Shown here piece by piece: positions 1-34,693 of a stretch of DNA of 64,000 nucleotides. Position 1 is the stretch's first letter. Every line of letters starts with the position of its first letter. The stretch is taken from NCBI GenBank assembly GCA_016125075.1, contig WGMO01000011.1, positions 124,001 to 188,000 of the forward strand. The letters run 5' to 3'. A program made the position numbers and the translations under genes. The DNA comes from Terrimonas sp. (GTDB lineage: Bacteria; Bacteroidota; Bacteroidia; Chitinophagales; Chitinophagaceae). The notes beneath the pieces are model-generated. The model searched no databases. It was not told the DNA's origin and saw nothing but the letters and a program-made list of their open reading frames with translations.

Positions 1-1044
1 TACATCCTGGTACATCGGCTCACCGGCTGCACCCGATTCCTTGGTCCTGTCCAGTACGGCAATGGATCTTACCGATTGCGGAATAGCATTTACCAGGTAT
101 TCAAGGGAAAAAGGACGGTATAAACGAACCTGTATAACCCCTGTCTTTTCACCTGTTTTATTCAGGGCCTTCACCGTTTCAGCAACAGTTTCCCCCCCCG
201 ATCCCATGATAATGATGAGTTGTTCAGCATCGGCAACGCCGCTGTACTGGAATAATTCGTAATGGCGTCCGGTCAGTTTTTCAAAGTCTTTCATCACAGT
301 ATTGACAATGTCCGGCATTTTGTTGTAATAGGTATTGACCGTTTCCCGGCCCTGGAAATACACATCGGGGTTTTGGGCTGTTCCCCTGATAAAGGGATGT
401 TCGGGGTTTAGTCCCCGCTGGCGGTGGGCCAACACCAAATCATCCGGCATCATGGAACGGATCTGTTCATCACTCAGCATTTCCAGCTTATTCACTTCAT
501 GGGAAGTACGGAACCCATCGAAGAAATGGACGATCGGGATCCTGGATTGTAAAGTAGCGACCTGTGCGATTAAAGCAAAATCATGTGCCTCCTGCACACT
601 GGCTGCCCCCAGCAGGGCAAATCCTGTAGTCCTGGCTGCCATAACGTCCTGGTGATCACCAAATATGGAAAGCCCCTGTGCCGCCAGTGAACGGGCTGCA
701 ACATGAAAAACAGCTGGTGTGAGTTCGCCTGCAATTTTGTACATGTTGGGCAACATCAGCATCAGGCCCTGCGAGGCCGTGAATGTAGTAGTGAGCGAAC
801 CCGTTTGCAATGCGCCATGCACGGCACCGGCTGCTCCCCCTTCACTTTGCATCTCCATGACATCGGGGATATTGTTCCAGATATTTTTTATCCCCTTTGA
901 AGCCCATTCATCGGCCAGTTCTGCCATGGTGGAAGATGGAGTGATCGGATAAATGGCACAAACCTCATTGACCCGGTAGGCTACATAGGCGGCGGCTTCA
1001 TTCCCGTCGATCGTAGAAATTATTTTTTTATGCTTTGACATCAT
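1..1044 (-). CDS. nifJ: Pyruvate:ferredoxin (flavodoxin) oxidoreductase, N-terminal part, cut by window edge
   Basis: About 348 N-terminal residues of a 2-oxoacid:ferredoxin oxidoreductase; the 3' end lies outside the window. The family decarboxylates pyruvate with thiamine diphosphate and passes electrons to ferredoxin. Visible are the domain I motifs YPITPSSTMAE, QSEGGAAGAVHGA and TASQGLMLMLPNM, then the start of domain II (YFQGRETVNTYYN, IIIMGSGGETVAE). Two consecutive ATG codons (1044 and 1041) begin the frame; either overlaps the end of the upstream flavoprotein gene by 14-17 bases, which suggests translational coupling. The partner gene probably connects this enzyme to NAD(P)H. Family assignment is strong; pyruvate as substrate is from family knowledge. 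Confidence 0.93.
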   Translation of the reverse strand, partial: MMSKHKKIISTIDGNEAAAYVAYRVNEVCAIYPITPSSTMAELADEWASKGIKNIWNNIPDVMEMQSEGGAAGAVHGALQTGSLTTTFTASQGLMLMLPNMYKIAGELTPAVFHVAARSLAAQGLSIFGDHQDVMAARTTGFALLGAASVQEAHDFALIAQVATLQSRIPIVHFFDGFRTSHEVNKLEMLSDEQIRSMMPDDLVLAHRQRGLNPEHPFIRGTAQNPDVYFQGRETVNTYYNKMPDIVNTVMKDFEKLTGRHYELFQYSGVADAEQLIIIMGSGGETVAETVKALNKTGEKTGVIQVRLYRPFSLEYLVNAIPQSVRSIAVLDRTKESGAAGEPMYQDV

Positions 1045-2677
1045 TTGTAAGATTAGCAGGTTCAGGAATCATTTCAATGGCATGACAGGGGCACTGTTCA
1101 TAACAAACAGCACAGCCGGTACAGGCATTATAATTGAACTTATAACGGTTACCCTTACCCAGTTTAATGATGGCATCTTCCGGGCAGGCCCCGAAACAGC
1201 CATCACATTCAAAACAGTTACCACAGCTCAGGCAGCGCTGTGCTTCAAAACTGGCTTCCTCAGCGGAGAGACCCTGCACCACTTCGTCAAAGCTCTTGAC
1301 TGCCACAGCCGGAGCCAGCTTATCCTGTTCTTGCTGGGGCGCTTCCGTTTTATACCACATGTGCAGTTTCCGGTAACCGGCTGTGGGATGCTTATCCGGT
1401 TTCTGGTAGGGTTCCTGCATCAGGTAACCATTGATATACCGGGCGGCTTTTTTACCCTGCCCGATCGCAATGGTGGAGCTCCTGTTTTCGCCCGGCAGCA
1501 TATCTCCACCTGCAAAAATCCCTTCCTGTCCTGTCATCCGTTGGGCATCGACAGCTACGGTACCATCCTCGTTGATCCGGATCCCAGAAACGGAACGCAA
1601 AAAACCGGAATCGGCTTCCTGCCGGTTTGCCAGAATCAGCACGTCGGCATTTACTGTTTCAAACTCCCCGGTACCGGTGGCTTTCCCCTTTTCAACACGC
1701 ATCTTTTCGAGCGTAACCTGGTTTTTTTCAATCTTCACAATATTCCTCAGCAGTTCAACTGTTACGCCTTCTGCCAGCGCATCCTCAGTTTCATAATCGT
1801 AGGCTGGCATCATTTTTTTATCACCCGGAAAATAGACGACGGCCTCGGAGCCAAACCTTTTTATGATCCGTGACAGGTAAAGGGCCAGCTTTCCCCCACC
1901 AAAAACAAGTACTTTTTTCCGCACATAAGGCGAGGAATTCAGGTTCGCTTCCTTAAAAAAGGTAAATGCATCAGTAATGGGTACGGAGTGATCATGTTCA
2001 AATGTTTCCTGGCGGATCAGTTGTGCGCCGATGGCCAGGTAAACTGCATCGAAATTGCCCGATTCCTTTTCCCGGATCACATCCTGCACCTTATGGTTCA
2101 TCCTTAACCTTACCCCCATCTTTAATATACGGTCAATTTCAGCCTCGATGATATTGCGCGGCAAACGATATTCGGGTATACCCGTCCGTAATAAACCACC
2201 CGGGAATGCCCCGGCATCATACACTTCAACTGTATGCCCCATCCTGGCCAGGTGATAGGCGGCCGATAAACCCGAAGGGCCGGCACCGATCACCAGCACT
2301 TTTTTGCCGGTGGGCGGCACATCAAAACGGATGGGCCAGCCTTGTTTGATGGCTTCATCGCCAATATACCGCTCCACCGCATGGATATTGACAGTGGTAT
2401 CGATATGGTTCCGGTTGCAACCCGTTTCGCAGGGCTTTACACAAACCCTGCCCATGATTCCTGGAAAGGGGTTGTCTTCCACCAGGGTCTGAAAGGCTTC
2501 AAAATAATCACCTGCCTGTGCATGTGCCATCCATCCCTGGATATTTTCACCTGCAGGGCAGGCACTGTTACAGGGAGGCATAAAGTCAACATAAACAGGT
2601 CGTTGAAACCTTTTTGGTCCTGTCCCTTCCGCATGAACCGAAAGGTCGACAGGTTTGGTAATGTCAAATAAAGACAT
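1028..2677 (-). CDS. GltD-like FAD/NAD(P) oxidoreductase with C-terminal 2[4Fe-4S] ferredoxin domain
   Basis: 549 residues. The N-terminus has the cysteine-rich domain of glutamate synthase small subunits (C36, C40, C79, C83, C87). A FAD-binding GAGPSG lies near residue 131 and a second Rossmann motif FGGGKLA near 259. The last 70 residues hold ferredoxin cysteines in CLSCGNC, CFGACP, CTGCAVC and CPCHAIE contexts. No GltB large subunit is present. The gene instead precedes and overlaps nifJ, so it is more likely an NAD(P)H:ferredoxin oxidoreductase serving pyruvate:ferredoxin oxidoreductase than a true glutamate synthase subunit; that role is inference. It is the first gene of the pair on the minus strand. 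Confidence 0.88.
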   Translation of the reverse strand: MSLFDITKPVDLSVHAEGTGPKRFQRPVYVDFMPPCNSACPAGENIQGWMAHAQAGDYFEAFQTLVEDNPFPGIMGRVCVKPCETGCNRNHIDTTVNIHAVERYIGDEAIKQGWPIRFDVPPTGKKVLVIGAGPSGLSAAYHLARMGHTVEVYDAGAFPGGLLRTGIPEYRLPRNIIEAEIDRILKMGVRLRMNHKVQDVIREKESGNFDAVYLAIGAQLIRQETFEHDHSVPITDAFTFFKEANLNSSPYVRKKVLVFGGGKLALYLSRIIKRFGSEAVVYFPGDKKMMPAYDYETEDALAEGVTVELLRNIVKIEKNQVTLEKMRVEKGKATGTGEFETVNADVLILANRQEADSGFLRSVSGIRINEDGTVAVDAQRMTGQEGIFAGGDMLPGENRSSTIAIGQGKKAARYINGYLMQEPYQKPDKHPTAGYRKLHMWYKTEAPQQEQDKLAPAVAVKSFDEVVQGLSAEEASFEAQRCLSCGNCFECDGCFGACPEDAIIKLGKGNRYKFNYNACTGCAVCYEQCPCHAIEMIPEPANLTNDVKA

Positions 2678-2837
2678 GATGATCGTTTTTTAGGAGACAA
2701 CATAGTATCCCCTGTAGATAAATAGGTACAGCAAAGTAGAATTTGATTTGAAAGATCCGGGTGACATAGTTCAAGGGATACAATGATTCCCATCATAATA
2801 ACCCATTAACTTTCAGCTGCAATGCGGGGCATAAAAA

Positions 2838-22426: not shown

Positions 22427-22486
22427 AAAATTGATCACTTTCCGCAGATAAATTCCCCGTTTTTTTGACCAGACTCAAAGCAGCAA

Positions 22487-22552
22487 GTGATATTAATCAC
22501 GTTTTATGCAATTAGCTATCATATCCCAAACGTGGAATGCGGATTAGCTTTG
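22487..22552 (+). promoter_or_regulatory. CRP/FNR-type operator plus -7 box upstream of yceI
   Basis: Palindrome AAGTGATATTAATCACGTT contains GTGA-N6-TCAC with centre at 22493.5. A perfect Bacteroidota -7 box TAGCTTTG (TAnnTTTG) is at 22545-22552, its first base 51.5 bp from the palindrome centre. No TTTG -33 element is seen. The same layout recurs upstream of 24028 and 30723. It fits activation by a CRP/FNR-family protein bound near -61. Confidence 0.7.
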
Positions 22553-22585
22553 ACCGCATTTAATTTTTGATCATGTAAACAGTAA

Positions 22586-23191
22586 ATGATGAGCAAAACG
22601 ATCCCTGGCCAACCGAACAAGCAATTCCTGCTTTTAATGATCTTCCTGCTTTTCTCCGGTATTATTAATCTTTCCCCGGCACAGATCAATTCATCGGGAG
22701 CGGTTTCCATTTCCCTCGAAGGCAGTTCTAATTATCATGACTGGGACCTGTCATCCGATAAAGGTCAGTGTAATGCCACCTATACAATCGATTCTTCCGG
22801 CAATCTCACGACCCTGCAAAAACTTGTTTTCAATATCAAGGTTGAAACATTAAAAAGCGGAAAACCTTCGATGGATAAAAACACCTACCGCACCTTTGAT
22901 ATTGACAAGTACCCCAATATCAGTTTTGTGAGCAGCTCCGCCACGATCCGGCATCAGGGGGGGAATGACTATATCATTACCTGCGAGGGCAGGTTAACCA
23001 TTTCCAGTGTGACCCAAAATATCACGCTGGTGGCAAATACCAGCCTGACCATCGATAAATCCCTGAAAGGAACGGGAGAATATCATTTAAAAATGACGGA
23101 TTATGGTTTAACACCGCCCAGCATCCTGTTTGGTACCATAAAGACCGGAAATGATGTTACCGTTAAATTCGACTTCCTTTTAAAAAGCTGA
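22586..23191 (+). CDS. YceI family periplasmic protein
   Basis: 201 residues with a signal peptide (hydrophobic 12-32, cleavage near SPAQ). The mature part is a lipocalin-like YceI domain: SISLEGSSNYHDWDL, TLQKLVFNIKVETLKSG, YPNISFVSSSATI, ILFGTIKTGNDVTVKFDF. YceI proteins bind long-chain polyisoprenoid-like lipids. It is preceded by a CRP/FNR-type site and followed after 17 bases by a membrane protein gene. A second YceI-type protein lies 0.8 kb downstream under a similar site, so both probably answer the same regulator. Confidence 0.88.
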   Translation: MMSKTIPGQPNKQFLLLMIFLLFSGIINLSPAQINSSGAVSISLEGSSNYHDWDLSSDKGQCNATYTIDSSGNLTTLQKLVFNIKVETLKSGKPSMDKNTYRTFDIDKYPNISFVSSSATIRHQGGNDYIITCEGRLTISSVTQNITLVANTSLTIDKSLKGTGEYHLKMTDYGLTPPSILFGTIKTGNDVTVKFDFLLKS

Positions 23192-23208
23192 TTTATTCAT
23201 TCACCAAA

Positions 23209-23628
23209 ATGACAGTTATGAAAAAAGTCCTGATCGCCGGTTTCACAGCAGGCATTGCCGTATTGCTTGTCAGTCTTGGATTGTTGTATGCTTCCATCTT
23301 CCTATTTCCGGACCTGGTGGAAGAATATTTCAGCCCGGTCTTCCGTGAGTCTTCCCGCCAAACCGACTGGCTATTCTACGTACACCCCTTTATCCTCAGT
23401 TTTTCCCTGAAATGGTTCTGGGAAAGGTATAAGCAGTTATTTAAGGGTATCCCATTTGTAAGGGCCCTGGAACTGGCATTTGTGTATGGCATCGTGGCGA
23501 TGGTACCGGTATTATGGCTGACCTTCAGTGCCATTGATGTATCACTCACCGTCACCTTTACCTGGCTTATCTATGGCATTATTCAGGCCTTTGTAGCCGG
23601 GTTTATTTTTGCCTGGTTAAACCCATGA
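23209..23628 (+). CDS. Four-helix membrane protein of unknown function
   Basis: 139 residues (start at 23209, or 23218 giving MKKVLIAGF). Hydrophobic helices at about 7-32, 60-72, 88-108 and 115-135. No named family recognised. It lies 17 bases after yceI in the same orientation, so it is likely its operon partner. A weak hairpin (AAGATG/CATCTT, 23668-23686) follows and may end the unit. Confidence 0.65.
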   Translation: MTVMKKVLIAGFTAGIAVLLVSLGLLYASIFLFPDLVEEYFSPVFRESSRQTDWLFYVHPFILSFSLKWFWERYKQLFKGIPFVRALELAFVYGIVAMVPVLWLTFSAIDVSLTVTFTWLIYGIIQAFVAGFIFAWLNP

Positions 23629-24027
23629 AAAATTGAAATGAAATTAACCCTATTGGTACAATAAAAGAAGATGGCCCCGGCATCTTTCTGAAAATAGAAT
23701 ACTGTCTTTCAAGCCAATAAAGAACACACCCTATTTGAATGATAGCTCCAATTGCGGTATAAAAATCCTCTGCTGCGGATTTACATCACTTTATCATTCC
23801 CCAACACAATAATGATTCATATCAAAGAAAGAAATCATATCCGTTTCTGATACTGAAGAGGCGGGATAACAAATTGAATACGAAACTGATCGGCATGCAT
23901 GTTTAATATCGGCAGATAATGTGATTATTATCACATTACATTTTGATGACAGTCATACAGATTCGGTTATTTCCAAAATAATTTTACTCCCGATTAAAAA
24001 CATTTCTTATTTATTAAAATAAATTTT
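23629..24027. other. Intergenic region with a regulatory site, no gene
   Basis: 399 bases without a credible reading frame. It holds a weak hairpin (23668-23686) just after the upstream membrane protein gene, then AT-rich sequence. A CRP/FNR-type palindrome and a -7 box near the 3' end belong to the second yceI unit. I see no RNA gene or repeat in 23690-23910. Confidence 0.6.
23918..23986 (+). promoter_or_regulatory. CRP/FNR-type operator plus -7 box upstream of the YceI lipoprotein operon
   Basis: A perfect palindrome AATGTGAT-TATT-ATCACATT occupies 23918-23937 (TGTGA-N6-TCACA, centre 23927.5). A -7-like box TAATTTTA is at 23979-23986, its first base 51.5 bp from the centre, the same spacing as upstream of 22586 and 30723. 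This is the strongest of the three sites. It predicts control of 24028-26276 by a CRP/FNR-family activator. Confidence 0.78.
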
Positions 24028-24828
24028 ATGAAACTGCTTAGAAATAAGTCCCTCCTGGTTCTCCTGCTCCTGATCAGTGGCTTTGGGTATATCGTAAGTT
24101 GTACCAGAGATAATGACCTCCTGGTGCCCGTTCAATTAACTCCACCCTTTGTTGCCACCAGGGGAAATAATGTTCACCTTCCCGGCAATATGACTGCAGG
24201 AGATACCACCCAGTGGAAACTTGATAAAGTCCATTCCAGTACACTTTGGTCTACTGCCTATGTTGGGGCTGCAGGATTACTTACGGGTCGTTTTAACCAG
24301 TTTGGGATGCATGACGTCACTGATGCTGAAGCCATCAGTTATAATACGACGGGCCAGCCGCTCCTGGATAATTCATGGGCATTTTATGAAAGTGATCCCA
24401 CAAAAACATTTTTTAATGGATATGTGCAAATAAACACTTCCAATACGGGTGAACCGGGAAGAGATGCGGGTTGTAATATTTCCGGTATGGGTACCGTACC
24501 CATTGTAGCGGGCACTCAAAACCTGGCCTATCCTAACCTGGCAAAAATCAAGACAACAAAAATCGAGCTGGATCCCGCAAGCAACGGATATATTGTGACA
24601 TTTGATCTTACTTACCAGGGTAAATTATCTGCGCCCCTTACAAAATCAATTATTGGTACATTGAAATATATCAAAAGACAAACCGTACAATTTGGTACTG
24701 CAGCGGCTTATGATGTGTTTGGCCTTCAGTTGAAATTCCAGTTTAACTGCCGTGATTATGGTATTGTTAGTACCAGTATTGGAGATGTAATCGATATTGA
24801 ATGCAATATGAACTTCAACAACAAATGA
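24028..24828 (+). CDS. YceI-like lipoprotein
   Basis: 266 residues. Lipoprotein signal with Cys25 (YIVSC). From about residue 60 it has a YceI-type beta-barrel pattern: TTQWKLDKVHSSTLWSTAYV, GLLTGRFNQFGMHDV, NGYVQINTSNTGEPGRDAGC and GTLKYIKRQTVQFG. It differs from the 22586 protein in being lipid-anchored and longer. It heads an operon with a cytochrome lipoprotein and a DUF5777 barrel. A lipid- or quinone-binding periplasmic role is possible; YceI lipid binding is family knowledge, the rest inference. Confidence 0.82.
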   Translation: MKLLRNKSLLVLLLLISGFGYIVSCTRDNDLLVPVQLTPPFVATRGNNVHLPGNMTAGDTTQWKLDKVHSSTLWSTAYVGAAGLLTGRFNQFGMHDVTDAEAISYNTTGQPLLDNSWAFYESDPTKTFFNGYVQINTSNTGEPGRDAGCNISGMGTVPIVAGTQNLAYPNLAKIKTTKIELDPASNGYIVTFDLTYQGKLSAPLTKSIIGTLKYIKRQTVQFGTAAAYDVFGLQLKFQFNCRDYGIVSTSIGDVIDIECNMNFNNK

Positions 24829-24848
24829 TCACTATTAAACTCAGAGAA

Positions 24849-25232
24849 ATGAAACGACTCCTCATATATACTGGTCTGTTGTTAGCTGTTTTGATTGGCT
24901 TAACCAGTTGTTATAAAGATATCATCAAACCAGAGCTGGCGGTTGATCCTGACGGCCCACCGCAACAAGTAAGTTTCGCCAATGACCTCGCACCACTCTT
25001 CAATAGCAGTTGTGCACTGGCCGGATGCCATGTGGCAGGTTCCCACAAACCCTACCTGACAACAAATGAATCCTATATACAAATTGTTAACGGCGGCTTT
25101 GTTAACACTTCACTGCCCAAAAAAAGCATCCTGTATATCAATGTATTTGGTGAAATGGCTCAATACATGCCCTCCCAGGCAAACAGGCAGAAGGTGTACG
25201 ACTGGATCCGAAACGGTGCCCCCAATAATTAA
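24849..25232 (+). CDS. Cytochrome c-like lipoprotein with CX4CH heme motif
   Basis: 127 residues from the ATG at 24849; the frame extends to 24801, inside the preceding gene. Lipobox LTSC (Cys21). The heme motif is CALAGCH at residues 55-61, four residues between the cysteines rather than two, with SFANDLAPLFNSS before it and a possible axial methionine in GEMAQYMPSQ. The C-terminal VYDWIRNGA helix is typical of cytochrome c domains in this phylum. It lies between a YceI lipoprotein and a DUF5777 barrel, and is probably a periplasm-facing electron carrier. Confidence 0.8.
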   Translation: MKRLLIYTGLLLAVLIGLTSCYKDIIKPELAVDPDGPPQQVSFANDLAPLFNSSCALAGCHVAGSHKPYLTTNESYIQIVNGGFVNTSLPKKSILYINVFGEMAQYMPSQANRQKVYDWIRNGAPNN

Positions 25233-25253
25233 CTGACTTAAAAAACTAATCAA

Positions 25254-26276
25254 ATGAAACTTAATATATATAAGACAAAAAGTTGGTTAACGGCGGCTGT
25301 TACACTAACCTTTCTGTTCGGAATGCTTACTACGCAGGTATTGTGGGCACAAGATGACAGTACGGTTGTTAGTGAAGTGCCGGAAGCACCCGTCAAAGCC
25401 AAACCCGTAAAAAACACCTTCCAGAGCGTATGGATTGGCGATAATCAAACAGTCATGGTTCCGGTAAAGGGTACTATGGAAATGGATATTCAGCACCGCT
25501 TCGGAACCTGGAATAAGGGATATGAAGATTTCTGGGGATTTTTTGCCCCCTCCAATATCAGGATCGGCATCAGCTATGCACCCATTAACAAATTAAATTT
25601 GGGTATCGGTTTTACAAAAACGACAGCAGCTGTGATCCCCGGTTCTACGATTTCATCTGTTTCAGGGCCTGTATGGGATGGAAGTCTAAAATATTCCATC
25701 ATCACCCAAACAAAGGGCCAGTACCCGGTAAGCGTTACTTATTATGGTAATGCGGCTATCAATACAAAAAAAGATACGGCACATGATATTTACAGGTATG
25801 CCAGCGACAGGTTATCATATTTTCACCAGGTTATCATTGCCCGTAAAATCAACAACCATTTATCCGTTCAGCTAGCACCCAGTGTTTCACATCATAATGT
25901 TGTGAATGGCTACTTCAGCAAAGAAAATGACAGTACACTGAGAGTAAACCAGGCAATGAAATTTGACCATTTTGCCATTGCGCTCTCGGCCCGTTATAAA
26001 CTGACAGATGTAACCTCCCTGATGATTAACTATGACCAGCCAATTACCCGGCATGCAACCAATAACCCCAATCCAAGTGTTTCATTCGGAGTGGAATTTA
26101 ACACCAGTAGTCACTCATTTCAGTTATTTTTCACCAACTATTATTACCTGATACCCCAGATCAATAATATGTACAATACCAATAATCCATTTACCTATAC
26201 GGACAAAACAGACACCAAGATTAATGGCAATAAATTCCTGATAGGATTTAATATCACCCGGCTTTGGAACTACTAA
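25254..26276 (+). CDS. DUF5777 family beta-barrel outer-membrane protein
   Basis: 340 residues. Signal sequence (to about residue 32, LWAQ), then alternating amphipathic strands through to the C-terminus. Family blocks: TFQSVWIGDNQTVMVPVKG, MEMDIQHRFGTWNKGYEDFWG, NIRIGISYAPINKLNLGIGF and the C-terminal FLIGFNITRLWNY. Function of DUF5777 is unknown. It is third in an operon with a YceI lipoprotein and a cytochrome, and a hairpin terminator follows. It could form the outer-membrane part of that system. Confidence 0.87.
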   Translation: MKLNIYKTKSWLTAAVTLTFLFGMLTTQVLWAQDDSTVVSEVPEAPVKAKPVKNTFQSVWIGDNQTVMVPVKGTMEMDIQHRFGTWNKGYEDFWGFFAPSNIRIGISYAPINKLNLGIGFTKTTAAVIPGSTISSVSGPVWDGSLKYSIITQTKGQYPVSVTYYGNAAINTKKDTAHDIYRYASDRLSYFHQVIIARKINNHLSVQLAPSVSHHNVVNGYFSKENDSTLRVNQAMKFDHFAIALSARYKLTDVTSLMINYDQPITRHATNNPNPSVSFGVEFNTSSHSFQLFFTNYYYLIPQINNMYNTNNPFTYTDKTDTKINGNKFLIGFNITRLWNY

Positions 26277-26298
26277 TGTAAAAAAGCAGTTTTATCTT

Positions 26299-26325
26299 AG
26301 CCCTGAACTTAAACCATTCGGGGCT
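26299..26325 (+). terminator. Hairpin after the DUF5777 gene
   Basis: A 9-bp stem AGCCCTGAA/TTCGGGGCT (one G-T pair, 9-base loop) is followed by ATTTTATT. It lies 23 bases past the DUF5777 stop and 8 bases before the next ATG. It can act as a terminator or partial read-through attenuator. Confidence 0.55.
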
Positions 26326-26333
26326 ATTTTATT

Positions 26334-26837
26334 ATGAAACAGTGGGCGCATATATTACCAGTATGCCTGATGGCGGGGCTCATATCCTGTGCTGATTCCA
26401 ATGGAAAAGACAGTCAACAAACAGGCAGCGCAAAACCTGCTGTCGTTCAAAAGGTCAAACCTCCGGCCAGTTTCCAGGATACTTTGACCATCGACAAAAG
26501 ATCAGCCATCTTCTATATACCTGATTCCCTGCAGCTGGAACGAATAAAAGTCATTACGGAACCGGGGGTATTTGAATCTGCCCAGCATGAATATTATTTC
26601 CAGATGCGGAATGCCCGGATTGTCCTGCACAGCAATTGGCCTGAAGTGAAAATAATAGAGGCGCGACAATTAAGATTCCTCCGCTTCAAAAGAGTAAATG
26701 GGCGGGACACCCTGATCGATTTGAATACAAAGAATGACCCCTATGGCCTATTCTTATTTACACCCGGAAAAGCCCCCCGGCTCACTGATATGACCAATAT
26801 TGAGACTGAATTGTACTTTTATTTCAAAAAAACATGA
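26334..26837 (+). CDS. Lipoprotein of unknown function
   Basis: 167 residues. Lipobox LISC with Cys19; a low-complexity linker (to about residue 45) precedes a globular domain rich in beta-strands (SAIFYIPDSLQLERIKVIT, YYFQMRNARIVLHSNW, LIDLNTKNDPYGLFLFTPG). No recognised family. It begins 8 bases past the hairpin after DUF5777 and has no obvious promoter of its own, so it may depend on read-through. Confidence 0.65.
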   Translation: MKQWAHILPVCLMAGLISCADSNGKDSQQTGSAKPAVVQKVKPPASFQDTLTIDKRSAIFYIPDSLQLERIKVITEPGVFESAQHEYYFQMRNARIVLHSNWPEVKIIEARQLRFLRFKRVNGRDTLIDLNTKNDPYGLFLFTPGKAPRLTDMTNIETELYFYFKKT

Positions 26838-27010
26838 TCGTTTTTGCAGAAACCGGTATAAAATGTATGGGCAAGGCATGGAAAAAGCCGCATTCCGGGA
26901 CAATTCTCAAGGAAAAAGCTGAGTTAAATCAGTATTTCCCGGAAATATTTACAGTTATTTTAATACTGAAATGAAAACAACTATTACCAGTTTAACTCCC
27001 TGTCAAATTT

Positions 27011-28219
27011 ATGAAACTAACGATTCCGGTCAACTGGGAAGATGATTATTTTGATAAAATAGACTTTTCACAGACTGAAGAAATTTACGGGAAACTCAAT
27101 GTAGGCCTCATTGGAGGAGGCAGACCCTCACTTACACTCCCCGGTGTAAAAAAAGAAAAAGTAGGTGAATTTGTAAGAGAAGCCCACCGCCGGAACTTAA
27201 AATTCAATTACCTGATGAATGGCACCTGTTTTGATAATCTTGAAATCACCAAAACAGGTTACAGGGATATACGAAAAACGCTGGACTGGCTGGCAGAAAA
27301 TAATGTGGATGGCATCTCCGTGGCCTTACCCATGGTCATGGAAATCATCAAGAAGAACTACCCCCAGTTTTCAATATCCGCCTCTGTACAGGTGAGGATT
27401 GACAGTTTCGAAAAAGCAAGATACTGGGAAAACCTGGGGGCCGACAAGATCAATATCTCCTACGTGGATATCAATAAAAACTTCGAAGAGATAAAAAAGA
27501 TAAAAGAAAAAACCACTTGCAAAATTCAGACCATTGCTAATCTCATGTGTATGAATAAATGCCCGATGGTAACCCTCCATGCCAATTATAATGCACATGC
27601 CTCACAGAAAAACCATGTCAACAACAATTTCAGCTTTGATTATTACCTTTTTTCCTGTGCAGAAAAATTATTATCAAACCCGGTTGAAATTCTCAAATCG
27701 GCATTCATCAGGCCAGAAGACCTTCATTATTATGAAGAGGCCGGAGTTGACAATATAAAGCTGGTTGAAAGAAGCATGACCACAGATGCCCTTGCAAGGA
27801 TTGTTGATGCCTATTCGAAAAGATCATATGACGGCAATATGATGGATCTCATACACGGACTTTCCAAGTACATCATTTATAATAAGGATAAATATTACTG
27901 GAAAGGGTTAAAATACCTGCTGCAACCCTCTAAGATCAGCCTCACCAAGGCCCACAAACTCGTCAGCCAGCTAAACACACTGAGAAAAGAAAAGGCATTT
28001 AATGAAAGTTTCGACCTGTATATCGATAATAAGAAATTAAATGGCTTTATGGACTTCTTCCATAAAGGGAATTGCCACCGGGACTGTAATGAATGTAATT
28101 ATTGCCACAAATTTGCCGAAAAGGCTATCAGCTACCTGGTGCCGGTGGAAGAGCACGAAAAAGCTATGCAGTCACTCCGTGATACAAAGAATATGATGAT
28201 CAAAGGAGATCTTTTCTGA
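27011..28219 (+). CDS. Peptidase U32-family protein (probable Fe-S hydroxylase-type)
   Basis: 402 residues. U32-type TIM-barrel: NVGLIGGGRPSLTLPGVKKE, NYLMNGTCFDN, GISVALPMVMEIIKKNYPQ, SISASVQVRI, GADKINISYVDINKNFEE. Cysteines are C73, C180, C184 (MCMNKCP) and C216, plus a C-terminal CX3CX2CX2C (C355, C359, C362, C365). Characterised U32 members (UbiU/UbiV, TrhP, RlhA) use a [4Fe-4S] cluster for oxygen-independent hydroxylation of quinone precursors or RNA, rather than proteolysis. Neighbours are membrane-lipid and respiratory genes, which leans toward a lipid or quinone substrate; this is inference. It probably forms a unit with the MMPL gene 40 bases downstream. Confidence 0.8.
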   Translation: MKLTIPVNWEDDYFDKIDFSQTEEIYGKLNVGLIGGGRPSLTLPGVKKEKVGEFVREAHRRNLKFNYLMNGTCFDNLEITKTGYRDIRKTLDWLAENNVDGISVALPMVMEIIKKNYPQFSISASVQVRIDSFEKARYWENLGADKINISYVDINKNFEEIKKIKEKTTCKIQTIANLMCMNKCPMVTLHANYNAHASQKNHVNNNFSFDYYLFSCAEKLLSNPVEILKSAFIRPEDLHYYEEAGVDNIKLVERSMTTDALARIVDAYSKRSYDGNMMDLIHGLSKYIIYNKDKYYWKGLKYLLQPSKISLTKAHKLVSQLNTLRKEKAFNESFDLYIDNKKLNGFMDFFHKGNCHRDCNECNYCHKFAEKAISYLVPVEEHEKAMQSLRDTKNMMIKGDLF

Positions 28220-28259
28220 AATTATTCCCCTAAATTGAACGGAGAGAAAATACCGAATA

Positions 28260-30545
28260 ATGAACGAAAGAATAGGGCGCACTGGCTTAGTTGTTATCCT
28301 GCTGCTTACCCTGCTAAGCTTCCTGCCCCTTCGCTCGCTGAAATTCGAATTTAATATCGAAAAGCTTTTCCCGGCGGGGGATCCTGAACTTACTTTTTTC
28401 CAGCAATTTCAACAAGCATTTAATTCACAGATTGATGATGAATTCATCTTTATTGGCCTCAGGAATAACAAAGGGATTTTTGACAGGGATTTCCTGGTAA
28501 AAACCGACAGTTTGTCGCGCTTCCTATCAAGGATGGATCATATCATTAAAATCTACTCCCTCACCACAACCAATATCATTTTCTTCCAGGATCAGGAAAT
28601 TAATGCACGACCCCTGATCCATATCAACCAGCCTGCATTATATCCATCGGATTCTGTCTATCTCTTTCAGTCAACAGAATACAGGAATTTGCTGATTTCC
28701 AATGATGGAAAATCCATTGCAATCGCAGCATTTAACCAACAAAATCTCACCGATGACCAAAAAGATATTATTCTTAACAGTATTCAGAACAAGATCAACC
28801 GGTTGGGTTTTGACGAAAGCCACCTGACCGCTAAAATCAGGGTTGAAAGAATTTACATCACCGAAATTGAAAAAAATCTTAAAAAATATTTACTGCTCTC
28901 CCTGATCATTATTTGCGCGGCCCTTTATATATTATTCAAATCCATAAAAACGATCATTTTACCGTTGCTGGTTATCCTGGTTTCAATTCTCCTCACTTTT
29001 GCACTTATTGCCGTTACCGGTCATTCGATCGATATTATTTCCAGCCTGCTCCCGCCCATACTGGCAGCCATATGCATGTCGGATATCATACACATAACCA
29101 CCCACTATATTGAACAACTGAGGAATGGCTTATCTAAAAAAGAAGCGCTGCATAAGGCGTACAGGGAAGTGGGGCTGGCCACTTTTTTTACCTGTTGTAC
29201 GATTGCAATAGGATTTGTCACACTCGGCATTACGAATATCATACCTATCAGAAATTTCGGGTTCTTTGCCGCAGCCGGGCTATTAATCGGTTTTGTCATC
29301 ACATTCATTTCCCTTTATGTCTTATACTATTACTCGCCTGTACCAAAAATTGTACATGAAAAAAAAGCGGATCATCGCTGGAACAGTTTCCTGGCAACCT
29401 CTTTCCGAACAGTTATCAAAAATAAATACCTCGTTTTTACACTGTTAGCCATTCTAACCGGTATATCCGTTTATTACTCCACTAAAATAGAGATCAACTC
29501 AAGCCTTCTCCAGGAAATTCCGAAAAACAATCCCATGCTGGATGATTACCGGTTTATGGAAAAAGATTTTTCAGGTACCCGGCCCTTTGAACTTGCATTA
29601 ACGGTAAACGACCCTTCCTCCAACTTTTTTGATCTCAAAAAGATGCAGCAAGTTGAAGAAATTGAAAAATTCCTGAAAGACAGTTGCGGAATCGGATATA
29701 TCATTTCTCCCGTATCATTATTCAAGGGAGCCAATAAGGCCTTCCATGGAGGTGAAAATGCCCAATTCAAATTACCTGCATCTGAACAATCCATGAGCCG
29801 TTATTATGAAGGGATCATGCAAACAGAATTTGCCGATGAAATGAACCATTATATGGTTGCCAATGGCAGTATGCTCAGGATCAGCGGACGTTTACCCAAC
29901 CTGAGTGTAAAAGAATTTCAGCCATTAAAAGAAAAAATTGAACATTTCTTTTCTCTTAAAATTAATGAATTCGGGTTTTCGCACCAGGTCACGGGTTCTG
30001 CACTTTTACTGGACAAGGTTACCTATTCGCTAACGCAAAATCTTTTCACTGGAATATTCTTTGATGCCCTAATTATCTGCCTGATAGCATTATTTATTCT
30101 GAGGAACTGGACAATCATGGTCATTGTAATGATCCCAAACATCATCCCCCTGATTTTTATGGGAGGGGTGATGGGATACATGGGTATTAACCTAAAGGCT
30201 GACACTTCGGTGATCTTTGCCATTGCTCTGGGTCTAACAGTTGATGATACGATACATTTTCTAAGCAGGTTAAGACTTGAATTAACACGGGGGCTTTCTT
30301 TGCCATATGCAGTAAAAAGAACCTATCTTTCTACGGGGAAAGCCATCATTTTAACAACACTGGTATTATTATCCGGCTTTATGACTCTACTATCTTCCAG
30401 CTTTGGGGGAACTTATTATATTGGATTATTGATCAGCCTCTGTATGTTTTGTGCTATGATCATGGAACTCACTATTACCCCACTATTGGTATTATTATTA
30501 TATAGCCATAAAAAAAGAAAGAATCCAGGCCAGTCCAGATCATAA
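28260..30545 (+). CDS. MMPL/RND-superfamily membrane transporter
   Basis: 761 residues in the two-repeat RND layout. TM1 is at about residues 9-26, a large periplasmic loop follows, then helices about 208-360; TM7 is at about 390-408, a second loop follows, then helices about 600-755. Functional TM4/TM10-like motifs are AAICMSDIIHITTHY and GLTVDDTIHFLSRLR. It is single-chain and lacks adjacent MFP/TolC genes, so it resembles MMPL or HpnN-type lipid exporters rather than HAE1 drug pumps. Same orientation and 40-base gap to the U32 gene suggest a shared lipid-related function. Confidence 0.88.
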   Translation: MNERIGRTGLVVILLLTLLSFLPLRSLKFEFNIEKLFPAGDPELTFFQQFQQAFNSQIDDEFIFIGLRNNKGIFDRDFLVKTDSLSRFLSRMDHIIKIYSLTTTNIIFFQDQEINARPLIHINQPALYPSDSVYLFQSTEYRNLLISNDGKSIAIAAFNQQNLTDDQKDIILNSIQNKINRLGFDESHLTAKIRVERIYITEIEKNLKKYLLLSLIIICAALYILFKSIKTIILPLLVILVSILLTFALIAVTGHSIDIISSLLPPILAAICMSDIIHITTHYIEQLRNGLSKKEALHKAYREVGLATFFTCCTIAIGFVTLGITNIIPIRNFGFFAAAGLLIGFVITFISLYVLYYYSPVPKIVHEKKADHRWNSFLATSFRTVIKNKYLVFTLLAILTGISVYYSTKIEINSSLLQEIPKNNPMLDDYRFMEKDFSGTRPFELALTVNDPSSNFFDLKKMQQVEEIEKFLKDSCGIGYIISPVSLFKGANKAFHGGENAQFKLPASEQSMSRYYEGIMQTEFADEMNHYMVANGSMLRISGRLPNLSVKEFQPLKEKIEHFFSLKINEFGFSHQVTGSALLLDKVTYSLTQNLFTGIFFDALIICLIALFILRNWTIMVIVMIPNIIPLIFMGGVMGYMGINLKADTSVIFAIALGLTVDDTIHFLSRLRLELTRGLSLPYAVKRTYLSTGKAIILTTLVLLSGFMTLLSSSFGGTYYIGLLISLCMFCAMIMELTITPLLVLLLYSHKKRKNPGQSRS

Positions 30546-30605
30546 ATCACTCTTAATCAATCTTTAATAATTTTCTAACTTTTTTTGAGTCCTGTCATCA
30601 TTCTA

Positions 30606-30672
30606 TGTGATTAAAATCACAATGCATTAAGCCCCTTATCATTCTGCCAATGAATGAGCTACGGTACTTTAG
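30606..30672 (+). promoter_or_regulatory. CRP/FNR-type operator plus -7 box upstream of the Fe-S/NrfD operon
   Basis: TGTGATTAAAATCACA at 30606-30621 (GTGA-N6-TCAC, centre 30613.5). A -7-like box TACTTTAG is at 30665-30672, one mismatch to TAnnTTTG, with its first base 51.5 bp from the centre, exactly as in the two yceI units. No TTTG -33 element is visible. It implies activator-dependent transcription of the module starting at 30723. Confidence 0.72.
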
Positions 30673-30722: not shown

Positions 30723-30938
30723 ATGGGCAATAACAAATCAGAAAATAAATCCCGCCGCTGGTTTTTAACCGGTGGGTTAACCGGTAAAGCCAAACAGGAA
30801 AAAGTCAAGATGCTAACAGCTGATGGCCAACTGGTTGAAATTGACAAAGCTGTTCTGGATGCTATAAAGACCAGTCAAAAAGCTACCAATAAAGAAATAT
30901 ACGACTGGATGAATAATCCTTCAAAAGAAAAAAAATAG
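30723..30938 (+). CDS. 71-residue SRRxFL mini-protein related to the Fe-S subunit N-terminus
   Basis: The protein begins with NKSRRWFLTGG, a twin-arginine-like motif, but lacks the hydrophobic stretch of a real Tat signal. Residues about 28-42 (VKMLTADGQLVEID) match VKLLSPDGEIVEID in the following Fe-S subunit, where it lies just after the Tat signal. So the gene looks like a free-standing, shortened copy of that N-terminal segment. It ends 22 bases before the Fe-S gene and has the operon's promoter upstream. No function is known; it may be a small subunit or assembly partner (inference). Confidence 0.72.
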   Translation: MGNNKSENKSRRWFLTGGLTGKAKQEKVKMLTADGQLVEIDKAVLDAIKTSQKATNKEIYDWMNNPSKEKK

Positions 30939-30960
30939 TTGATCTATATAAATCTTAAAA

Positions 30961-31926
30961 ATGAAAAAAGAAGAAGAAATCAACGATAAAAGCCGCCGCG
31001 ATTTTTTAAAGACGGCTGCCCTGGCAACTATCGCCACTACTGCATGCGGTAGCCTGGCTTGCTCCTGCTCTCCGAAAAAAGCTGAAGTGGCAAAAAAGGT
31101 CAAACTTCTCTCTCCGGACGGAGAAATTGTTGAAATCGATTCGGCCTACCTGAACTACCAGGAACATATGGCAATTGTTTCAAAACTGGAAGCCAGACAG
31201 GGAATTGCCGGAAAGAAATTTGTGATGGTTGTGGACCTCTCCCGTTGTAAAAATGCCCGCAAATGCGTTGCGGCCTGTCAAAAATGGCATTACCGGCCTG
31301 AAGACAAGGAATGGCTTACCGTCAAACTAATGAAAGACAGCGAAGAGGGTGCGCCTTATTGGTTTCCAAAACAATGCTTCCACTGCGACAATCCCCCCTG
31401 TGTTAAGGTTTGCCCTGTCGATGCTACATTTAAAAGACAGGACGGGCTTGTGTTGATTGATAATGAAAGGTGCATTGGGTGTAAATTCTGTATGGCTGCC
31501 TGTCCCTATTCTACCCGTGTCTTCAACTGGGAAGAGCCTGACATACCCATCGATATTAAAAACCTTCAATATTCACCCGAAACCGGAATCCCAGCCAGGG
31601 TCGGTACAGTTGAAAAATGTGATTTCTGCCCGGACAGGTCCAGAGAAGGCAAACTCCCTCCCTGTGTGGAAGCCTGCCCGAATGGTGTATTTTATTTTGG
31701 TGATGAAAATGAAGATACCGTAACAAATGGTGATGAAACGGTCAGTTTTTCTCAATTGATCAAAGACAGGGCTGCTTACCGCTTCATGGAAGAATTAGGC
31801 ACAAAACCAAGGGTCTATTATCTGCCGCCAAAAGACCGTCAATTTCCAGTTGAAAGAGGGTACGAAGATCTACCCGAGAAATTAAAAGACAGGTTTAAAT
31901 ATATTATGGAAGATAAAACAAAATAG
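30961..31926 (+). CDS. Tat-exported 4Fe-4S electron-transfer subunit (HybA/DsrO/NrfC-like)
   Basis: 321 residues. Tat signal KSRRDFLKTAALATIATTA (residues 10-28), then CGSLACSCS. Four cluster sites follow: site I C96-x2-A99-x2-C102-x3-C106, where the usual second cysteine is alanine; CFHCDNPPCVKVCP; CIGCKFCMAACP; and CDFCPDRSREGKLPPCVEACP. It belongs to the four-cluster subunits that pair with NrfD/PsrC proteins and pass electrons between the membrane quinone pool and a periplasmic partner. The NrfD gene follows directly. No molybdopterin subunit is present in the window. Confidence 0.9.
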   Translation: MKKEEEINDKSRRDFLKTAALATIATTACGSLACSCSPKKAEVAKKVKLLSPDGEIVEIDSAYLNYQEHMAIVSKLEARQGIAGKKFVMVVDLSRCKNARKCVAACQKWHYRPEDKEWLTVKLMKDSEEGAPYWFPKQCFHCDNPPCVKVCPVDATFKRQDGLVLIDNERCIGCKFCMAACPYSTRVFNWEEPDIPIDIKNLQYSPETGIPARVGTVEKCDFCPDRSREGKLPPCVEACPNGVFYFGDENEDTVTNGDETVSFSQLIKDRAAYRFMEELGTKPRVYYLPPKDRQFPVERGYEDLPEKLKDRFKYIMEDKTK

Positions 31927-31962
31927 GACCAGGCATTTCTTTAATTATCCAAAGAATCAATT

Positions 31963-33306
31963 ATGGAACTCAATACATACCAAAAAGAAATTTTCGAACG
32001 CCAGCGACCGGTGATAGAAAAATTTGGCAAAAGAACATGGGGGTGGACCATCTTTTACTTATTGTGGATTGGCGTAGGCGGATATGCCTTATACCTCCAG
32101 ATAGCAAAGGGGCATAAGGTTACAGGCATGAGAGATAATGTGGTGTGGGGATTATATATTGCAAATTTTATTTTCTTCATCGGGATCAGTTATGCAGGTG
32201 CCGTCATATCCGGTATCCTTCACCTTTTAAAAGTGGAATGGCGAAAACCAATCATCCGGATTGCCGAAATGATCACCGTCATTGCTACCATTATTGGGCC
32301 GATATTTATTCTATTATGTATTGGCCGTTTGGACCGTTTACACCATTTGTTCCTGTACCCGAGATTGCAATCGCCCATTACCTGGGATGTGCTGGCCATC
32401 GGTACCTACTTCACGGGAAGCGTGATATTCCTGTACCTGGCTTTAATAAAAGATTTCGCCATTTACCGGGACGCTAAATTGAATATCCCGAAATGGAAGC
32501 AAAAATTCTATAAGATTATGGCTATTGGTTACAGGGGTACGCCCAGCCAGAAACGCCATATAAAAATATCCACAAACCTAATGGCGATCATTATCATCCC
32601 CCTGGCCATTATTGTTCACTCTGTACTTTCCTGGATTTTCGGGATGACATTAAGACCCGGCTGGCACAGTACCATTTTCGGACCCTATTTCGTTTTAGCA
32701 GCCATTTACTCCGGAACCGGTGTATTAATCATCGCCATGTGGGTGTACAGGAGAATGTATAAACTGAACAGCTATCTTACCGATAAACATTTTATCTACC
32801 TGGGTTATATCATGATGGTGCTGGGCGCAGGTTATGGCTATTTCACCTTTTCAGAATACCTGACCGACTGGTTCGCCTCCGAAAAATGGGATAACGAGGT
32901 CATAGAAAAATTATTTAACCCGGCAAAATATGGCTGGTGGTTCCTGTTTGCAAACGTTGCGGGAATCATATTACCCATTTTGGTGGTAGCCATTCCAAAA
33001 ACCAGAAGACCCAATCTCATTACATTGGCTGCCTTCTTTATGGTTTTGGCACTTTGGGTAAAAAGGTACCTTATTATTGTTCCCACACTTGAATCACCCC
33101 TGCTCCCCATGCAGGACACAAGGATGGAATATGTAAAATACCACGCTACCTGGGTAGAATGGGCATTAACGCTTGCAGGTGTTGCTACCTTCTTCCTGTT
33201 TTTTACCCTGATGTCAAAATTTGTGACCATCATTCCCATTTCAGAATTTGGAGAAAAGGAAAAAGCGATGATACCGGCAAAAGAAAATGAAATCGCAACG
33301 GCTTAA
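31963..33306 (+). CDS. nrfD: NrfD/PsrC-like quinone-interacting membrane subunit
   Basis: 447 residues with about ten transmembrane helices. NrfD features include GLYIANFIFFIGISYAGAVI near residue 65, the LLCIGRLDRLHHLFLYPRLQ loop near 125, and WHSTIFGPYFVLAAIYSGTG near 230. Such proteins have no heme and exchange electrons with menaquinol at the periplasmic side, passing them to the partner Fe-S subunit. Here the partner is the Tat-exported subunit just upstream; a cytochrome c is two genes downstream. The next gene's ATG lies 10 bases after the stop. Confidence 0.92.
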   Translation: MELNTYQKEIFERQRPVIEKFGKRTWGWTIFYLLWIGVGGYALYLQIAKGHKVTGMRDNVVWGLYIANFIFFIGISYAGAVISGILHLLKVEWRKPIIRIAEMITVIATIIGPIFILLCIGRLDRLHHLFLYPRLQSPITWDVLAIGTYFTGSVIFLYLALIKDFAIYRDAKLNIPKWKQKFYKIMAIGYRGTPSQKRHIKISTNLMAIIIIPLAIIVHSVLSWIFGMTLRPGWHSTIFGPYFVLAAIYSGTGVLIIAMWVYRRMYKLNSYLTDKHFIYLGYIMMVLGAGYGYFTFSEYLTDWFASEKWDNEVIEKLFNPAKYGWWFLFANVAGIILPILVVAIPKTRRPNLITLAAFFMVLALWVKRYLIIVPTLESPLLPMQDTRMEYVKYHATWVEWALTLAGVATFFLFFTLMSKFVTIIPISEFGEKEKAMIPAKENEIATA

Positions 33307-33316
33307 AAAAAAAATT

Positions 33317-34234
33317 ATGAAAAAAATATCAGTTCATTGGATAAAAAACCGTCTTTTCCTGGTGTTTGCTGCCTGGCAGGTATTTGCCTTTCTCGCGCCC
33401 GGTATCGTCCAGGCCCAACCTGAGACAAAGATTAACCCGGCACAGGAAGAAGTGGAATTGATAAGCCCCTCCCTGGACTTCACCTGCACCCAAAAAAACG
33501 ACAACACCGTTAACCTGAAAGCCATCCTGCGCGGAAAAGTAGAAGGAACTTTTGTCAAGTTCAGGCAAATGAAGATCACGTTTTACCAGGCATCCCCCTC
33601 CGGTGAACAGGAAATGGGTGCTGTTCATACCAACAGCGATGGAATAGCTTTGCTTAATGTAAAATCAGATTCAATCGCCACTGATGAAACCGGCAAATTT
33701 CACTTTAAGGCAGTTTTTGAAGGAAATAAATCAATGGAGTCTGCCGAAGAAGAAATCAGTTTCGCAAAAGCCCAATTAACCGTCAATCCCTTAAAAGAAG
33801 ATTCCTTATTTACGGTGGGGGTCAAACTAACGGACCCCAGTACGGGAAACCCTGTTCCCGAGGCCACCATCGGTATTTATGTGCACCGGCTGTTCAAGCC
33901 ATTAAAGATTGCAGAGGGAACCACCGATGAAAATGGGGAAATGTCTGTTGAGATTCCGCAAAACCTGCCCGGTGATGCAAAAGGCAATCTCCATTTTTTG
34001 GCCAGACTAGATGAAAGTGACGAATACGGCAACCTGGAAACCAGCTTTACTGAAGCCTGGGGAAAACCCGTCTCGGATCAGTTACAGGAGTTACCTAGGG
34101 CATTATGGAGTTCACACCCCCCTATCTGGATGCTGGTAACCTTTATTATTCTCATGACAGCTGTATGGGGACATTATATTGTCATTGTTTACGAATTATT
34201 CCGATTAAGAAAAGAAGAGCCGGAATCTGTTTAA
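33317..34234 (+). CDS. Periplasmic Ig-like protein with C-terminal membrane anchor, NrfD operon
   Basis: 305 residues from the ATG at 33317 (MKKISVHWIK); an earlier ATG at 33287 lies inside nrfD. A signal peptide (ending VQAQ) is followed by two beta-sandwich or Ig-like domains (about 45-145 and 155-250; DENGEMSVEIPQNLPG is a CarboxypepD_reg/Big-like turn). One transmembrane helix (about 268-290) precedes a short charged tail (RLRKEEPESV). It has no heme or Fe-S motif. Conserved placement between NrfD and the cytochrome suggests a structural subunit of the complex. Confidence 0.72.
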   Translation: MKKISVHWIKNRLFLVFAAWQVFAFLAPGIVQAQPETKINPAQEEVELISPSLDFTCTQKNDNTVNLKAILRGKVEGTFVKFRQMKITFYQASPSGEQEMGAVHTNSDGIALLNVKSDSIATDETGKFHFKAVFEGNKSMESAEEEISFAKAQLTVNPLKEDSLFTVGVKLTDPSTGNPVPEATIGIYVHRLFKPLKIAEGTTDENGEMSVEIPQNLPGDAKGNLHFLARLDESDEYGNLETSFTEAWGKPVSDQLQELPRALWSSHPPIWMLVTFIILMTAVWGHYIVIVYELFRLRKEEPESV

Positions 34235-34288
34235 AATGCAACTATTTCTTAACTTAAAGAATCTATTAAATAAGAAAAAATAAACAAC

Positions 34289-34693
34289 ATGAAAAAGAAA
34301 GTCTTAATTCTGTTTACCGGCCTATTTGGTTTTATGTTACTGGGTTTTGTGCCCAAAAACACATTCCAGGATCCATGGCCTGTCCCCGATGCTTATAAAA
34401 AGAAAGTCAACCCGGTTAAGTCTGATGCCGAATCCCTGACAACCGGAAAAACCTTGTATAACCAGCATTGTAAATCATGCCATGGAACAAAAGGAAAAGG
34501 GGATGGATCAAAAGCAGCTCAATTAGATACAGAGTGCGGAGACTTTACAAAAGCCCCCTTCCAGTCACAAACCGATGGAGCCATTTTTTATAAAACCTTT
34601 GAAGGCCGCAAAGACATGCCCTCTTTCAAAAAGAAAATTTCAGATCCCAATGATATCTGGGCTGTTGTTAATTATGTGAGAACATTAAAATAA
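34289..34693 (+). CDS. Monoheme cytochrome c, NrfD operon
   Basis: 134 residues. Hydrophobic N-terminal signal or anchor (4-22), then a class I cytochrome c fold with CKSCH at residues 61-65 and the likely axial methionine in GRKDMPSF; the C-terminal helix is DIWAVVNYVRTL. It is the last gene of the 30723-34693 module and is followed by a strong terminator. It probably accepts electrons from, or delivers them to, the NrfD/Fe-S pair. Confidence 0.9.
   Translation: MKKKVLILFTGLFGFMLLGFVPKNTFQDPWPVPDAYKKKVNPVKSDAESLTTGKTLYNQHCKSCHGTKGKGDGSKAAQLDTECGDFTKAPFQSQTDGAIFYKTFEGRKDMPSFKKKISDPNDIWAVVNYVRTLK

Follow-up and report, generated by a model that had tools for sequence, protein, structure and literature searches.

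Class II promoters of Escherichia coli CRP and FNR carry an activator site at -41.5, and a class I Crp promoter has one site, located upstream near -61.5, -72 or -82, and none at -41.5. The E. coli FNR site reads TTGAT-N4-ATCAA, and the recognition helices of FNR and CRP both contain an E and an R, to which FNR adds a serine. To our knowledge, little is known about the control of oxygen limitation and N2O reduction in environmental Bacteroidota. Here we analysed a stretch of 64,000 nucleotides from the Terrimonas sp. assembly GCA_016125075.1 (contig WGMO01000011.1, positions 124,001 to 188,000), termed the window in the following, which is C10:124001-188000 of a genome of 3.92 Mb in 32 contigs (G000). 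Three Crp/Fnr-type palindromes in this window belong to rows of TGA-N6-TCA sites at 22-bp steps. Judged from sequence, they are probably tandem activator sites of one low-oxygen respiration and stress regulon of the family, probably Chitinophagaceae, and the activator is most likely P0001/P0002, two proteins in which a receiver domain precedes a cNMP domain and a helix-turn-helix (HTH).

Palindromes as members of 22-bp tandem arrays

A preliminary description of the window had pointed out three GTGA-N6-TCAC palindromes, upstream of yceI, a YceI-lipoprotein operon and an Fe-S/NrfD operon, each at the same distance from a TAnnTTTG-like -7 box. We confirmed the three copies (Table 1), and the distance from the palindrome centre to the first box base is indeed 51.5 bp at all three promoters, a spacing found again at further promoters and in related genomes. 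The yceI box is the only perfect TAnnTTTG among them; the other two have one mismatch each. The distance of 51.5 bp is the sum of 22 and 29.5: each palindrome belongs to a row of TGA-N6-TCA sites at 22-bp steps, including five sites that the preliminary description had not listed (the distal and degenerate proximal sites of the yceI and Fe-S/NrfD promoters and the proximal site of the lipoprotein operon). A fourth array of the window, at 2762-2795 on the minus strand, was likewise absent from that description.

The corresponding tandem, TGA-N6-TCA-N10-TGA-N6-TCA, occurs 543 times in 98 genomes of the family and is present in 83 of them, compared with 11 occurrences of the reversed pattern. The Terrimonas genome contains 12 exact tandems (control, 0) and 44 if one mismatch is allowed (control, 1). 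The gap was also left free (0 to 30) in a search over 40 genomes, and the matches listed represent 132 distinct places from 20 genomes. Among these places, 48 show a centre-to-centre distance of 22 bp, with three each at 21 and 23 bp; the next peak, nine at 27 bp, seems to stem from a single conserved coding stretch. Under a uniform null, which ignores relatedness, the 22-bp peak has P ~5e-37.

The palindrome itself also exceeds chance. Exact GTGA-N6-TCAC is found four times in the window against 0.51 expected, a number reached by none of 100 shuffles, and GTGATN4ATCAC is found 15 times in the genome against once for the reversed pattern. The fourth window copy (6268-6281) is located within the open reading frame (ORF) 6054-6506, and 10 of the 15 genomic GTGATN4ATCAC copies lie within long ORFs, so that the palindrome alone is a poor marker. 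GTGATN4ATCAC was therefore rejected as a genome-wide regulon motif, also because a minority of sites carry the outer G (14% have it ahead of the distal TGA). Of the GTGA/TCAC site originally described, the TGA/TCA core is retained, whereas the flanking G and C fall outside the consensus. Palindrome plus box, searched across relatives, gave spacers of 44-46 in 12 of the 40 matches listed, a result that is suggestive and diluted by coding matches; phylum-wide, a match was found in 10 of 395 genomes, our own counted.

Three of the ten coding copies lie in TonB-receptor genes with a Plug domain (L006, L010 and L015, at C12:191639, C20:118925 and C29:62565). On our reading, the DNA encoding GVI-ITTKKG mimics a Crp/Fnr palindrome there, and motif scans in Bacteroidota can be misled by this coding stretch. 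The five intergenic copies are the three window palindromes and two near sulfur genes, C22:360836 and C22:370254 (L012, L013, L178). These two are absent from the 22-bp tandem list, lie near the FNR-like gene L019 and genes for TauE/SafE, MBL-rhodanese and a thioredoxin-like protein, and probably form a separate sulfur-related regulon.

In Flavobacterium psychrophilum, the TAnnTTTG box is placed at -12 to -5 according to PMC9723704. With this placement carried over, the array sites would centre at -41.5, -63.5 and -85.5. Thirty arrays from 30 genomes, found without use of the box, were scanned in both orientations: boxes with at most one mismatch appeared 15 times at 29.5 bp and six times at 30.5 bp, compared with 0.54 on average for every other offset, and 12 of 15 perfect boxes were located at 29.5 or 30.5 bp. 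The consensus derived from 66 oriented arrays reads TGAY-N4-RTCA for either site, with the TGA/TCA letters and the box (within one mismatch) imposed by selection, and a T follows the proximal TCA in 61%. Between -36 and -30, no consensus TTTG emerges from these 66 arrays, and TAnTTTTG comes next; the absence of a -33 TTTG element, noted before for the three window promoters, thus holds generally.

Genes behind the arrays and their conservation

Eight of the 12 exact arrays in the Terrimonas genome have a box at 29.5 bp, allowing one mismatch or the form TAnnTTGC. They belong to the lipoprotein operon, ccoN of the cbb3 oxidase, the adjoining P-type ATPase gene, the nosZ operon with an Rrf2 gene and window gene 1028-2677; the other three are C22:314124, C31:25475 and C30:15343, the last with a box at 29.5 bp in both directions. 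Two more of the 12, the yceI and Fe-S arrays, accommodate the box at 29.5 bp via a degenerate proximal half-site. The genes behind arrays thus include those for a cbb3 oxidase, a P-type ATPase and nosZ, in keeping with a regulon of low-oxygen respiration and stress. The nos array (C22:306991, L163) has perfect boxes 29.5 bp off on each side, TACTTTTG for nos and TAATTTTG for the Rrf2 gene; by this arrangement, a single array can apparently serve two divergent promoters. Contig C30 also holds two Usp genes (one above and one below the Pfam cut-off) and the gene pair of P0001 and its kinase.

Comparison of orthologous upstream regions, proposed earlier as a check, bore out the conservation of the tandem. 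YceI-lipoprotein matches are present in 24 of 195 family genomes, and we examined the 13 best of 31 entries, full or nearly full length and including our own genome. Their promoters contain 26 TGA-N6-TCA sites; 500 mononucleotide shuffles gave 1.26 on average and 5 at most. An exact 22-bp pair is kept in 10 of the 13, with three sites in some. In seven, the proximal centre is followed after 29.5 or 30.5 bp by a box with no more than one mismatch, which places the box 51.5 or 52.5 bp past the neighbouring site; the other six have no box at these two offsets.

Upstream of the nearest Fe-S orthologues (76-86% identical), seven of eight loci carry an exact 22-bp pair ∼320-380 bp before the Fe-S gene. 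From named genomes, 80 Fe-S loci were fetched, 75 of them with enough upstream DNA. An array with at most one mismatch is present in 37 of the 75 (reversed control, 0/75), and exact pairs occur in 29 of 75 at 22 bp and in none at any of the remaining spacings between 14 and 39. Six offsets were tried for the box, accepting TAnnTTTG with one mismatch or exact TAnnTTGC: 33 of the 37 arrays have it at 29.5 bp, 26 of these 33 as TAnnTTGC. Array-bearing loci are mostly titled Chitinophagaceae, Ferruginibacter, Chitinophagales or just Bacteroidetes; no array was found at the examined Fe-S loci titled Saprospiraceae, Saprospirales, Cyclobacteriaceae, Lewinellaceae or Bacteroidales.

Besides these 26 named loci, TAnnTTGC replaces TAnnTTTG at 29.5 bp in L128-L132, L134 and L135. 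It resembles the SM5 class box of F. psychrophilum, TAnnTTGY in PMC9723704, and possibly reflects the use of another sigma factor. In L191, L197, L199, L205, L212, L214, L217, L220, L223 and L251, the Fe-S tandem is preceded at 48-49 bp by an additional single site, in most cases ATGACTTTAGTCAC.

Table 1. Array sites, -7 boxes and genes in the window; approximate promoter positions follow the box placement in F. psychrophilum
Feature	Position	Strand	Remarks
Flavin/4Fe-4S NAD(P)-binding protein	1028..2677	-	NCBIfam PRK12771 above cut-off
Box TACTTTGC	2731..2738	-	TAnnTTGC type, 29.5 bp past proximal site of fourth array
Fourth array, before gene 1028-2677	2762..2795	-	exact 22-bp tandem
Distal TGA-N6-TCA of yceI promoter, TGACCAGACTCA	22466..22477	+	22 bp before central palindrome, ~-85.5
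yceI palindrome GTGATATTAATCAC	22487..22500	+	centre 51.5 bp before box, ~-63.5
Degenerate proximal yceI site CAATTAGCTATCAT	22509..22522	+	3' half only (TATCAT), 29.5 bp before box, ~-41.5
yceI -7 box TAGCTTTG	22545..22552	+	perfect TAnnTTTG
yceI gene	22586..23191	+	PF04264, 201 amino acids
Distal site of YceI-lipoprotein operon, GTGATTATTATCAC	23921..23934	+	GTGA-N6-TCAC palindrome, ~-63.5
Proximal site of YceI-lipoprotein operon, TTGATGACAGTCAT	23943..23956	+	29.5 bp before box, ~-41.5; conserved in orthologues
YceI-lipoprotein -7 box TAATTTTA	23979..23986	+	one mismatch
YceI-lipoprotein operon	24028..26276	+	three genes
YceI-like lipoprotein	24028-24828	+	Pfam YceI slightly under cut-off
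Lipoprotein with CxxxxCH motif	24849-25232	+	
DUF5777 barrel	25254-26276	+	
Distal TGA-N6-TCA of Fe-S/NrfD promoter, TGAGTCCTGTCA	30586..30597	+	~-85.5
Fe-S/NrfD palindrome GTGATTAAAATCAC	30607..30620	+	51.5 bp before box, ~-63.5
Degenerate proximal Fe-S/NrfD site AAGCCCCTTATCAT	30629..30642	+	3' half only (TATCAT), ~-41.5
Fe-S/NrfD -7 box TACTTTAG	30665..30672	+	one mismatch
First Fe-S/NrfD operon gene	30723..30938	+	71 amino acids, RRWFL (twin-arginine-like) start
Remainder of Fe-S/NrfD operon	30961..34693	+	Fe-S protein, NrfD protein, 304-amino-acid protein, cytochrome c

The leaders predicted for the yceI, lipoprotein and Fe-S promoters comprise 29, 37 and 46 bases, respectively. Within the lipoprotein operon, the product of 24849-25232 contains the unusual CxxxxCH motif SCALAGCH, a possible heme-binding site. 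The Fe-S protein of the third operon is DsrO-like (below cut-off) and the NrfD protein (PF03916) is DsrP-like (below cut-off). The stretch 30723-34693 thus combines a DsrO/DsrP-like pair with a small twin-arginine-like protein and a cytochrome c, and no obvious catalytic subunit adjoins it.

Candidate regulator and alternative explanations

The Terrimonas genome encodes 12 proteins with a cNMP domain. Two of them, P0001 and P0002, combine a receiver (PF00072, 100 and 98 bits) with a cNMP domain and an HTH (PF00027 and PF13545, above cut-off in both). Each is adjoined by a gene for a PAS-HisKA-HATPase histidine kinase, and only these two of the 12 carry the helix GTATESLIR. In both, the receiver comes first, an N-terminal cysteine cluster is absent and the FNR-type [4Fe-4S] set was not found; they score 72 and 74 bits with the Fnr model and 87 and 70 bits with the CRP model, far under the cut-offs of 228 and 266 bits. 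Based on domain architecture and distribution, these two-component proteins are the best regulator candidates. The preliminary description had predicted one CRP/FNR-family regulator; the spacing does fit a DNA-binding domain of this family, but the best candidate is a receiver-cNMP-HTH protein and no plain CRP or FNR.

Of the 98 genomes, 71 encode a full-length receiver-cNMP-HTH relative (E < 1e-80). Genomes with such a gene contain 7.0 arrays on average, compared with 1.6 in those without (Mann-Whitney P = 2e-8), and at least three arrays are found in 59 of 71 versus 6 of 27. Of 96 full-length genes listed, we inspected the neighbourhoods of 57 (0.496 Mb) and found 48 exact arrays in 34 of these neighbourhoods, ∼75-fold above the 0.64 expected from the family average, with at most two arrays at each other spacing. 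A box lies at 29.5 bp in at least one direction in 37 of these 48 arrays and at any other single offset in at most four. In G028, G529 and G051, an array is located directly upstream of the receiver-type regulator gene itself. A looser version of the helix pattern resolved 50 of the 57 receiver-type loci (the first version had matched 45 of 60): an exact array accompanies 29 of 46 ATES-x-IR loci and none of four AKES-x-IR loci, which are too few to conclude.

A number of observations weigh against assigning the arrays to one such regulon and to P0001/P0002. Arrays C30:26098 and C30:26154 lack a box at 29.5 bp, and in two of the three palindrome promoters (yceI and Fe-S) the proximal site is a half-site. 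More distant Fe-S orthologues (55-61% identical) have the exact pair in only 2 of 21 cases, and the near Fe-S loci L187, L194, L195, L203 and L204 are without array. Shared ancestry inflates all P values for regulator association, and 23 of the 57 regulator neighbourhoods contain no exact array. At least three arrays are found without a full-length receiver-type gene in G066 (8), G087 (6), G078 (6; gene fragment at a contig edge), G080 (5), G031 (3) and G530 (3; 60% complete), while G012 and G026 carry the gene and no exact array. L019, the FNR-like protein encoded on C22 beside the TauE/SafE and MBL-rhodanese genes, is associated with arrays as well: the 71 genomes with an orthologue average 6.7 arrays and the 27 without 2.4 (P = 2e-5), and discordant genomes do not separate it from the receiver type (13 vs 13, P = 0.16).

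The arrays could thus be bound by a single-domain FNR-like regulator, here L019, which we consider rather unlikely. In its favour, G066, G080 and G087 encode single-domain homologues that have several cysteines in the N-terminal part and the helix GTATESTIR or GTATETAIR, each with an array just 3′ of its gene. The helix of L019 itself is different (ATSREVVSR), however, the two intergenic palindromes near it are outside the 22-bp tandem list, and the 13 genomes with a receiver-type gene and no L019 still average 4.1 arrays. Because the array-adjoining homologues in G066, G080 and G087 share a similar helix, array binding may be determined by the helix and not by the receiver. These single-domain Crp/Fnr proteins (L307, L308 and L309 in G087, G066 and G080, respectively) are candidate Fe-S sensors. 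Another protein, L023, was rejected as a general regulator, with a close orthologue (E < 1e-60) in only 8 of 98 genomes.

It is improbable that the arrays are operators of a repressor: sites adjoining a promoter can block polymerase, but activation is better suited to the fixed -41.5 register, the missing -33 consensus in the 66 arrays and the nos array with a box in each direction. We give still less credit to class I activation from -63.5 alone, with the proximal sequence being incidental. This is close to the single site near -61 that had been proposed originally, and the half-sites at -41.5 in the yceI and Fe-S promoters would agree with it. In orthologues and other arrays, however, a complete proximal site is present at 29.5 bp from the box, and -63.5 differs by 2 bp from the usual class I position of -61.5. 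The conserved unit is a tandem in which the -63.5 site is accompanied by one at -41.5, where a class I promoter has none. Chance palindromes in AT-rich intergenic DNA, conceivable for a first sample of only three sites with a short box consensus, are practically excluded by the 543 tandems against 11 controls and by the spacing and box peaks.

Proposed mechanism and comparison with known systems

We propose that two dimers of a Crp/Fnr-type activator would bind the TGAY-N4-RTCA sites 22 bp apart, at -41.5 and -63.5. The proximal dimer would function as a class II activator substituting for the -33 contact, while the distal one could assist via cooperative binding or a contact with the C-terminal domain of the polymerase α subunit. 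Activity of P0001/P0002 would be switched by phosphorylation from the adjoining PAS histidine kinase, with oxygen or redox as the presumed signal. The receiver-type helix keeps the E and R of FNR and CRP and not the FNR serine, which agrees with the missing first-base preference of the array sites.

A wider reading, for and against which we see about equal weight, is that the receiver-Crp fusion is a two-component output whose two dimers, locked 22 bp apart, replace the -33 element and govern a main microaerobic regulon of the family (cbb3, N2O reduction, NrfD complex, Usp), with one array driving two divergent promoters. The exact sequence rule (TGAY-N4-RTCA, 22-bp step, TGAY-N4-RTCA, 29.5 bp, TAnnTTTG or TAnnTTGC) makes the regulon, nosZ included, readable from sequence and points to two regulator-kinase pairs. 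Its rigid spacing raises the structural question of how two Crp-like dimers fit together with polymerase.

The array boxes are like those of the sigma-A and SM5 promoters of F. psychrophilum, TAnnTTTG and TAnnTTGY at -12 to -5 in PMC9723704. The main text of that paper contains neither "crp" nor "palindrom", although an array could be described there in other wording, and in the literature searched, mostly at abstract level, we recognised no 22-bp Crp/Fnr array in Bacteroidota. The parts are known, namely the Crp/Fnr HTH, the class II position and receiver domains; new, within that literature, is their fixed combination.

Among solved structures, the Crp/Fnr regulator PDB 2gau is the best relative of the single-domain homologue L307 of G087 (E = 8e-37) and the top-scoring Crp/Fnr chain for P0002 (E = 2e-16), there covering the cNMP and HTH part only (residues 152-347). 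P0001 and P0002 have the E and R of the recognition helix and a similar site core in common with E. coli FNR, whereas they lack its N-terminal cysteine cluster and the first base of the array sites is unspecified. FixLJ-FixK and DosRS likewise combine a PAS histidine kinase with a response regulator, and the likely targets include cbb3, denitrification and Usp genes; unlike in these systems, receiver and Crp-type output are fused in one protein. The class II promoters of E. coli CRP and FNR are alike in the TGA-N6-TCA dyad, the Crp/Fnr HTH and the site at -41.5, here judged from the box, whereas the arrays differ from them by a second site 22 bp further upstream at -63.5, a Bacteroidota TAnnTTTG or TAnnTTGC box and a regulator that probably carries a receiver domain.

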